Positions 41,147-43,413 of a stretch of DNA of 52,869 nucleotides are shown here, piece by piece. The stretch comes from Candidatus Obscuribacterales bacterium (GTDB lineage Bacteria; Cyanobacteriota; Vampirovibrionia; Obscuribacterales; Obscuribacteraceae), in NCBI GenBank assembly GCA_020050685.1, contig JAGVKG010000054.1:1-52869 (forward strand), written 5' to 3'. Under the pieces are notes generated by a model that worked only from the letters and a program-made list of their open reading frames with translations, made no database searches and was not told the origin of the DNA. The number at the start of each line of letters is the position of its first letter. Position 1 is the stretch's first letter. The position numbers and the translations under genes were made by a program.

Positions 41147-41710
41147 CTAGACCGACGTGATTCTATCTAAAGGATAGAAAGGTTCCAGGGTCGAGCCGTT
41201 ATTGCTTTCAAAAAACTTGGCGATCATTTTGCGGTGCAAGTCGAAGGCGAGCTTTTCCGGCAGCGTGTCGCGGGTGAAAATCCCGACGTCCGAAGCATCG
41301 TCCCCTGGTTCGGGAGTCCCGCTTGCCGGTTTGGCTAAATAGAAAAGGATGACGACATTTATGCCTCGTCCGGGGGAGCCGGCGCCTAAAAGGCGATGCA
41401 GCTCGACATTCAGACCGGTTTCTTCCATGACCTCGCGAATTGCCGACTCTTCCGGGTGTTCGTGGGGTTCCATGAACCCGCCCGGCAGGCACCACCAATC
41501 TATAAAAGGTTCGAATTTCCGCTTAACCAGGACCAAGCCGCTCTCCATCGGCACCAAAGTCGCGGTTACTGGCTTGGGGTTGTCCCAATGGACAAACTCG
41601 CAGGCAGGACACGCCGCACGCTCCCGACCGCCGATTTCCACGGTCGTCAAGGGACTGGCACAGAGGGGGCAGGTATTCACGTTGGCAAATTTAGCACGTT
41701 CAGAGATCAC
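41147..41710 (-). CDS. NUDIX hydrolase with N-terminal zinc ribbon
   Basis: A 187-residue NUDIX hydrolase. Residues 14-37 form a zinc ribbon (CPLC and CPAC), then a WDNPKP linker and the NUDIX box GFMEPHEHPEESAIREVMEE, matching GX5EX7REUXEEXGU. This architecture resembles NADH pyrophosphatase-like and ADP-ribose-type enzymes that cleave nucleoside diphosphates linked to another group. The conserved WWCLPGG precedes the box. The start is GTG 41710; no ribosome site is seen. Substrate unknown. Confidence 0.88.
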   Translation of the reverse strand: MISERAKFANVNTCPLCASPLTTVEIGGRERAACPACEFVHWDNPKPVTATLVPMESGLVLVKRKFEPFIDWWCLPGGFMEPHEHPEESAIREVMEETGLNVELHRLLGAGSPGRGINVVILFYLAKPASGTPEPGDDASDVGIFTRDTLPEKLAFDLHRKMIAKFFESNNGSTLEPFYPLDRITSV

Positions 41711-42102
41711 GGGATATCACTTATCAAGCGCAGATAAAACATTACTATTGTTATTCAATCATATGTTAGCCGGCAGACGTTTGCAAATCTTGCGAGCCCA
41801 GAGCTAAATCCTGCAAAAATGCCACCGGCAGCGGTGTCACGCCGCAGTGTGTTTCGAAGCAAAATGTTAAGGCTGGATGCCCTCTTAACCTTGCCTTAAA
41901 CAATCTGGAATTAAATGATAAATTGCTTTTGCATAATTGATCTGGTGCTGTTAATATGTCGGCAAAGTTTCGATTGGATATCAAAACGTAATAATTTGAT
42001 GTTTTAACCGGAACCTTTTTCGAAACCGACGGTCTATGTAATTGACGAAAGTTTTTTGGGCATAACGTTTGGGCGTACGGCAGGGAACCAGGAGACACTA
42101 AA
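41711..42102. other. 392-nt leader region of the 59-aa peptide gene
   Basis: Divergent region between the NUDIX gene (minus) and the peptide gene (plus). A TTGACG near 42040 could be a -35 box, with a TAACG-type -10 about 16 nt later. A minus-strand ORF at 41766-42098 lacks a ribosome site and has poor composition, so it is rejected. Confidence 0.35.
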
Positions 42103-42282
42103 ATGAACCCGCAACATATCGCGGATACTCAACAGGGACAGGTAGTTCACGAGCAGACTAAGAATAACGTCTTGCAATTTTCGCTAGAGCCGCCAAAGGA
42201 ACAAGAGCAAGAAGATATGTGTGGTGGCGGTGTCTGCCAAGTAAACTGGAAACCATTCCGTGCTGGCATCCCAACCGGTTAG
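42103..42282 (+). CDS. 59-residue Cys-containing peptide, RiPP-like
   Basis: A short gene with AGGAGA 7 nt before the ATG and its own terminator 14 nt after the stop. The N-terminal 39 residues are hydrophilic and Gln/Glu-rich; the last 20 are different in character, MCGGGVCQVNWKPFRAGIPT then Gly. This leader-and-core look, with two Cys separated by four residues in a Gly run, is like precursors of ribosomally made modified peptides or a small metal/redox motif. No maturase or transporter lies nearby, so the role is open. Confidence 0.6.
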   Translation: MNPQHIADTQQGQVVHEQTKNNVLQFSLEPPKEQEQEDMCGGGVCQVNWKPFRAGIPTG

Positions 42283-42295
42283 TAACTACAAAATA

Positions 42296-42330
42296 AAAGA
42301 CGCCACCAAATTTGGTGACGTCTTTATTGT
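42296..42330. terminator. bidirectional terminator of peptide gene and aldolase
   Basis: AAAGACG-CACCAAA (42296-42310) pairs with TTTGGTG-CGTCTTT (42311-42325) with one mismatch; T-runs follow on plus (TTTATTG) and minus (TTTTATTTTG). It lies between convergent genes. Confidence 0.78.
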
Positions 42331-42345
42331 TTGCTTTATTTGTAT

Positions 42346-43413
42346 CTATGCAATTGTGATGTCTTTGCAAAGGTACACATCTTGAATGGCGTTCAACAAA
42401 GCGACACCATCCTTCATCGGTTTTTGGAAAGCCTTGCGTCCCGAAATTAATCCGGTGCCGCCAGCGCGCTTGTTAATCACGGCTGTTGTTACTGCTTCAT
42501 CCAAATCGTTTTGTCCTGACGGACCGCCGGAATTGATCAAGCCGGCACGTCCCATGTAGCAGTTAGCTACCTGGTAGCGGGTGAGATCGATTGGGTGGTC
42601 GGTGGTCAATTCGGAATAAACACGCGAATCGGTTTTGCCGAACTTCAAGGCATTGTAACCGCCGTTGTTTTCCGGCAGCTTCTGCTTGATGATGTCGGCT
42701 TGAATTGTCACGCCCAAGTGGTTGGCTTGACCGGTCAAATCTGCTGAAACGTGATAATCGGTATCGCCAACTTTGAACGCGGAATTTCTCAAATAGCACC
42801 AGAGAATTGTGGCCATGCCCAGTTCATGTGCATGTTGGAATGCTTCTGCTACTTCTTGAATTTGACGGTGCGATTCTTCCGAACCAAAGTAAATGGTGGC
42901 ACCGACAGCAACCGCTCCCATTTCCCAAGCTTCGCGAATATTGCCAAAAGAAATTTGGTCGAATGTATTCGGGTAGCTCAAAAATTCATTGTGGTTGAAT
43001 TTAACGATGAATGGAATCTTGTGCGCATATTTGCGTGCCACTGATCCCAAAACACCGTAGGTTGAGGCAACCGCGTTACAGCCACCTTCAATTGCTAACT
43101 TGACGATATTTCCGCCATCGAAATAAATTGGGTTTTTGGCAAACGATGCACCAGCTGAGTGCTCGATTCCTTGGTCAACTGGAAGGATGGACAAATATCC
43201 ACTTCCCCCCAAACGGCCATGGTTGAAAAGTGTTTGTAGCGATTGCAAAACGCGGGGCGAACGATCGCTTTGAGCCACTACGCGATCTACAAAGTCTGGT
43301 CCCGGCAAGTGCAGCATATCCTTAGATATGGTTTTGCACTGGTGCTCAAGGTAGTAGCCTGCCTTATTGCCAAGTGCTTTTTCGATGCTTGATTTTTCGG
43401 TCATAACTGGCAT
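42346..43413 (-). CDS. fbaB: class I fructose-bisphosphate aldolase (DhnA type)
   Basis: A 355-residue Schiff-base aldolase splitting fructose 1,6-bisphosphate in glycolysis and gluconeogenesis. It aligns with the bacterial DhnA/FbaB group: [17 protein letters not shown] near residue 75-91, [24 protein letters not shown] with Lys243 at the Schiff-base position, and [16 protein letters not shown] near the end. GGAGG lies 10 nt before ATG 43413; a second ATG is 3 codons in. It is separately transcribed. Confidence 0.92.

Follow-up and report, generated by a model that had tools for sequence, protein, structure and literature searches.

The open reading frame at 42103-42282 of the window (the whole stretch of 52,869 nucleotides that was analysed) is a real gene. 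Its product belongs to a multi-copy, undescribed family of peptides that is under selection and is found almost only in Obscuribacterales, an order of non-photosynthetic cyanobacteria; this assignment is solid. The members share a C-terminal tail with the consensus C-x-[N/G/D]-G-V-C-x-[V/L/I]-x-W-K-P-x-[R/K]. We tentatively propose, giving the proposal somewhat less than an even chance, that the peptides could be cytoplasmic dithiol hairpin redox switches, possibly accepting oxidation from a peroxiredoxin. Searches of Pfam, NCBIfam, PHROGs, PADLOC and the PDB gave no matching family. A conserved multi-copy family of short proteins spans an entire bacterial order without an entry in the curated family libraries searched. 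The features of the locus are collected in Table 1.

Table 1 Peptide gene, its signals and its neighbours in the window
Feature	Position	Strand	Evidence and remarks
Peptide gene	42103..42282	+	59 codons plus TAG; product MNPQHIADTQQGQVVHEQTKNNVLQFSLEPPKEQEQEDMCGGGVCQVNWKPFRAGIPTG; read directly from the sequence
Ribosome-binding region	42084..42102	+	AGGAG, 8 nt 5' of the ATG; read directly from the sequence
Hypervariable hydrophilic N-terminal part, residues 1-39	42103..42219	+	Predicted disordered
Predicted two-cysteine hairpin C40-G-G-G-V-C45	42220..42237	+	AF2 EE--EE, pLDDT near 78
Conserved tail CGGGVCQVNWKPFRA, residues 40-54	42220..42264	+	Profile; similar to the arm that bears the resolving cysteine in the order's 2-Cys peroxiredoxin
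Intrinsic terminator hairpin	42296..42325		Shared between the peptide and aldolase genes
NUDIX hydrolase, divergent upstream neighbour	41147..41710	-	Pfam NUDIX E=1.8e-20; synteny; context only
DeoC/LacD-family aldolase, convergent downstream neighbour	42346..43413	-	Pfam E=5e-64; synteny; context only

The coordinates, the 59 codons and the sequence given for this gene in an earlier note on the same DNA hold as stated. The frame has a single ATG start, and upstream of the chosen ATG most relatives likewise show a GGAG- or AGG-type site. The earlier note had also described a ribosome site and, 14 nt after the stop codon, a terminator belonging to the peptide gene. Both signals are present: the stem begins at 42296, at that distance 3' of the stop, and consists of the hairpin GACGCCACC-AAAT-TTGGTGACGTC followed by T-rich DNA (folding z-score -2.9; equal stability in 1 of 200 shuffles). 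The terminator is bidirectional and also ends the convergent aldolase gene on the minus strand, for which its score is the higher one; it is therefore shared rather than the peptide gene's own. The window's genome carries one copy of the gene. Homologous small ORFs occur in 47 of the 53 genomes of the order, which places the peptide ORF far beyond chance.

A tblastn-type search with the window peptide gave weak matches in 38 of 60 relatives. The matching stretches proved to be small ORFs that share one C-terminal motif but are unrelated in their N-terminal parts. As the only query in a scan of genome contigs the peptide found no match, and a degenerate DNA pattern encoding C-x2-G-[VI]-C-x3-W-K-P was required. 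This pattern matched in 43 of 53 Obscuribacterales genomes (reversed-pattern control, 0/53) and in none of 385 other genomes of the phylum (386-genome draw). A tighter pattern retrieved 50 stretches from 84,980 species genomes, 47 of them in Melainabacteria/Obscuribacterales-type assemblies, including Ca. Obscuribacter phosphatis; a few of the 47 are labelled otherwise yet match genomes placed in Obscuribacterales. The remaining three (Acidisphaera, Zoogloeaceae and Ruminococcus) lie in implausible ORFs and are probably chance matches; given the pattern's information content, we estimate that about four would arise by chance. With a profile of the tails (E<=1e-3), 113 members were found in 47 of the 53 Obscuribacterales genomes, with one to five per genome, and divergent members are present in two further genomes of the order. 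The median length of a member is 62 residues.

Column by column, the tails of 81 members (78 without three chance matches from other organisms that the set includes) read C, x, N/G/D/S, G, V/I, C, x, V/L/I, T/N/S, W, K, P, x, R/K, often followed by P-x-A-A. Some of these columns are fixed by the search expression, and an unconstrained profile search recovered the same residues. The Cys-Gly3-Val-Cys core noticed earlier is present in the window peptide, but the conserved unit is CxxGVCxxxWKP and not CGGGVC as such. Every member examined, even the most divergent, retains two cysteines at a distance of three to four residues (CSARVC-STTWKP, CGGHC-AIMWKP and CNGSC-ELHWKP), and Asn, Asp or Gly precedes the invariant glycine in 59 of 77 members. 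Two-residue hairpins classically turn on N-G, G-G or D-G, with cysteines one step outside the turn opposing each other across the strands; the cysteine pair is therefore predicted to be able to close a disulfide. In the AF2 model of the window peptide the first ~40 residues are disordered (pLDDT about 47-54) and a short hairpin forms at the cysteines, with a local pLDDT near 78. A second modelled member has bridges on either side of the same turn (local pLDDT 75-80), within whole models of low confidence (pLDDT 58-62). The tail is likely a redox-active dithiol hairpin, and the suggestion of a tiny metal or redox peptide, one branch of the earlier note, is supported by the presence of the cysteine pair in every member examined and on a predicted hairpin. 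As 76 of 78 members contain no hydrophobic segment, the family is probably cytoplasmic. The extreme C-terminus is alanine in 46 of 81 members and Ala-Ala in 29 of 81, the window member excepted, which recalls C-terminal degradation signals; an ssrA-like degradation end was not adopted, the window member ending in TG.

Codon analysis of seven ortholog groups gave pN/pS of 0.06-0.24 for the twelve-residue motif and 0.32-0.78 for the N-terminal part. Selection was measured on relatives, the window gene having no same-genus copy for comparison. The tail is under strong purifying selection, and the ~40 residues N-terminal of it evolve fast and are predicted to be disordered. The earlier note had tied the gene to a third-position bias in relatives, and an excess of third-position change is seen in the seven ortholog groups. 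Since the tails show short similarity to a peroxiredoxin arm, they might be regarded as degenerate copies of the 3' end of the peroxiredoxin gene, or the ORF as a functionless product of chance. Such an origin is scarcely credible: it is contradicted by the codon analysis, with strong purifying selection on tails across genera, by the gene order around the NUDIX-linked copy, which is conserved at 15 loci, and by the first cysteine, which is an addition with no place in the enzyme.

The same pattern of conservation bears on the other branch of the earlier note, a RiPP precursor in which a leader of ~39 residues would precede a conserved C-terminal core modified in trans. Small size and a contrasting tail would suit such a precursor, as would the SPASM radical SAM proteins that 33 of 53 genomes encode (the window's genome has a single, marginal match). 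The supposed leader, however, is hypervariable even among orthologs, and the N-terminal parts do not align across groups. The 58 loci compared show no maturase-like neighbour, a radical-SAM CxxxCxxC site being seen next to a peptide gene in one spurious-looking match only. The genome-wide maturase search covered YcaO and SPASM. YcaO was detected in 6 of 53 genomes and is lacking in the other 47, the window's genome included, and the distribution of SPASM does not track that of the peptides: six genomes at least 92% complete (G002, G008, G013, G015, G021 and G027) encode peptides with no SPASM match, and near-complete G018 has SPASM and no peptide. In addition, CxxGVC is also embedded in large proteins. 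With copies lacking a linked maturase, YcaO absent here and SPASM not co-occurring, a RiPP precursor is very unlikely and was rejected as the main reading.

A weak match to 1-cysPrx_C pointed to the AhpC-type 2-Cys peroxiredoxin of the order, an ortholog of which is present in nearly every Obscuribacterales genome. The C-terminus of this enzyme, TGGLC[QAG]A[DN]WKPGQKP, aligns with the GEVCPAGWKPG resolving-cysteine arm of solved 2-Cys peroxiredoxins. Side by side, the peroxiredoxin arm reads TGGLCQANWKPGQKP and the window tail CGGGVCQVNWKPFR; the window peptide and the arm in genomes of family f2 are 50% identical over 18 residues. When about 22,900 segments were ranked with an HMM of the peroxiredoxin arm, the window peptide came first among the non-peroxiredoxin ORFs (E=0.0075), and the next ranks were taken mostly by other family members. 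Conversely, with a peptide profile lacking the first cysteine, the peroxiredoxin was the best long protein after the family members. When the columns of the peptide profile were permuted, none of 200 versions scored as well on the peroxiredoxin, a test that concerns this protein alone and carries no correction for all other families one might compare. A PDB search with the peptide profiles retrieved no peroxiredoxins, and Pfam 1-cysPrx_C matched 1 of 59 tails (E=0.15). The likeness is suggestive, short and statistically modest, and would fit descent or mimicry alike; the tail is possibly a mimic of the peroxiredoxin arm.

The peptides and the arm of typical 2-Cys peroxiredoxins (AhpC/Prx1; PF10417 region) have in common a hydrophobic residue and the Cys-x3-Trp-Lys-Pro spacing, a preceding glycine, and a following basic residue and proline, with the order's own enzyme as the closest. 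This match to a [VL]CxxxWKP, PF10417-like arm is not detected by the Pfam and PDB profiles. Unlike the enzyme, the peptides are stand-alone and multi-copy, have unrelated N-terminal parts, and lack the thioredoxin fold and the peroxidatic cysteine; the AhpC-TSA fold (PF00578) with its PxxxTxxC peroxidatic cysteine has no match in the 59-residue, largely disordered window peptide. They also carry an extra cysteine, five residues upstream of the arm-like one, without a counterpart in the enzyme. Loss of the arm from the order's peroxiredoxin, considered as Pfam 1-cysPrx_C stays below its cut-off in 53 of 53 genomes, was rejected: the arm is present in a shortened form. As the enzyme retains its own resolving cysteine, its turnover needs no peptide, and the peroxiredoxin is also present in four genomes where no peptide was detected (G005, G018, G028 and G031). 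In the window's genome (contig C53, about 61.2-61.8 kb; L237) the first ~30 codons of the peroxiredoxin gene are out of frame with the rest, probably through an assembly indel; intact copies are present in nearly all relatives.

If the peptides do act as redox switches, their working part would lie at the C-terminus, with the dithiol hairpin C-x-[N/G/D]-G-V-C and, after it, the anchor x-[V/L/I]-x-W-K-P-x-[R/K], and the second cysteine together with the W-K-P anchor would copy the resolving-cysteine arm. Peroxide would oxidise the peroxidatic cysteine of the peroxiredoxin, and a peptide might then dock in place of the enzyme's own arm. Its second cysteine would form a mixed disulfide with the enzyme, which its first cysteine would resolve. 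The oxidised hairpin peptide would depart and later hand on the oxidation or alter a partner, and a thioredoxin-like reductase would reset it. Paralogs encoded next to sigma-factor, kinase, transporter or metabolic genes could take the signal to different places via their variable N-terminal parts. An arm that works in trans makes chemical sense in view of E. coli AhpC, in which one subunit's arm is folded across the active site of the adjacent subunit and its unfolding allows the resolving cysteine to attack (PMC5124861). Moreover, peroxiredoxins pass oxidation to dithiol pairs, e.g., in roGFP2 fused to a peroxiredoxin without its resolving cysteine (PMC13038412). Counting against the scheme, CxxGVC without W-K-P is present elsewhere in the order, and the role of the hairpin may be independent of the peroxiredoxin. 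Should the tails exchange disulfides with the enzyme, they would represent a genetically separate resolving-cysteine arm, and bacterial peroxide relays would become testable using a peptide of ~20 residues. Even without this link, the motif offers a clear signature for small proteins that are easily missed by gene callers.

Neighbours were compared at about 58 further loci, several of their names coming from sequence reading rather than a family search. The window copy is one of 15 with a divergent NUDIX gene upstream, and at eight loci (the window and seven others) a convergent aldolase gene lies downstream. Other copies follow ECF sigma-factor genes, are flanked by genes for a large sensor kinase and a response regulator, precede methionine synthase, or are near NCS1-type permeases or CusA-type metal efflux genes. 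At least six unrelated neighbourhoods are occupied, and one pathway cannot account for all of them; no copy was seen beside a peroxiredoxin gene in the loci read. At L144, L148 and L156 the peptide gene is directly 3' of an ECF sigma-factor gene, the place usual for anti-sigma factors, and at the latter two a second, similar sigma gene comes next.

The family could be read in two other ways, each of which we consider unlikely. The tail might be a short linear motif without a redox role that docks each peptide on one common order-specific partner, with the variable N-terminal parts tuning neighbouring genes, e.g., as anti-sigma-like or kinase-associated factors. The copies next to sigma-factor genes or between kinase and response regulator would agree with this, and docking motifs typically combine a conserved tail with a disordered chain; yet the two cysteines, at hairpin-pairing positions, are conserved more strongly than simple docking requires, and the neighbours are too diverse for a single regulatory role. 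The proximity of several paralogs to CusA-type efflux genes, together with the invariant cysteine pair on a hairpin, might instead indicate that the pair binds Zn, Cu(I) or a toxic soft metal and that the peptide buffers or senses the metal or pairs proteins. Four sulfurs would then come from two peptides, or from a peptide and a CxxGVC-bearing partner (response regulators and a protein of ~250 residues are possible ones), as in a zinc hook. However, each chain offers two ligands only, with no conserved histidine or third cysteine and with an N-terminal part free of cysteine in 62 of 78 members; a majority of the copies lie away from metal genes, and the invariant W-K-P would be left unexplained. 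Set beside zinc-hook or metallothionein-like peptides, the family offers two cysteines only, and the PDB search found no solved relative.

CP12, a redox switch protein of photosynthetic cyanobacteria, is also small and disordered and has a cysteine pair able to close a small disulfide loop, as predicted for the peptides; their motif differs, however, and is absent from the photosynthetic cyanobacteria scanned. The CP12 model of Pfam gave no match, a scan of the window peptide up to E=10 returning VanW only. The latter reflects a GGGVCQV-like string in the window member (E 0.14-0.18) and was rejected at 11.7-12.1 bits against a cut-off of 27 bits, as other family members lack the resemblance. 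With RiPP precursors of the PQQ and mycofactocin type the family shares a short ORF and conserved C-terminal residues, but it has several scattered copies per genome and neither a clustered maturase nor a conserved leader. A riboswitch or leader-peptide attenuation was dismissed: neither at the window nor around 20 copies does an Rfam match exceed the gathering score, and the conservation is in the protein sequence, not the DNA. Neither a phage origin (no PHROGs match; a lone IMG/VR match to a GC-rich contig, with an ill-fitting frame, was judged chance) nor a defence gene (no PADLOC match) was retained.

Response regulators are among the proteins of the order that carry CxxGVC without W-K-P; an enrichment scan across genomes for CxxGVC alone had too low a selectivity for interpretation. 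Extending the redox-switch proposal, there is perhaps a small chance of a lineage-specific redox network, in which stand-alone arm mimics with an added cysteine would relay peroxiredoxin oxidation to many targets, some of which (the response regulators and the ~250-residue protein) would carry CxxGVC as receivers. In the response regulators at L276, L280, L281 and L283, the C-terminal part contains C-x-[DG]-G-V-C-x-[VI]-[DE]-P, i.e., the cysteine hairpin of the peptides with no tryptophan, at a place where a LuxR-type helix-turn-helix is expected; L276 belongs to the window's own genome (contig C32, about 54.4-55.2 kb). The ~250-residue protein (L114, L116, L124, L277, L278 and L279) has CxxGVC inside an otherwise variable linker, and one member tested gave no Pfam match; at L114, L116 and L124 it is encoded within a few kb of a family peptide. 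An EF-hand-like repetitive protein of 909 residues at L282 (G030:C36) also has CKDGVCPVTPKF, which there follows a long PAETAK repeat.
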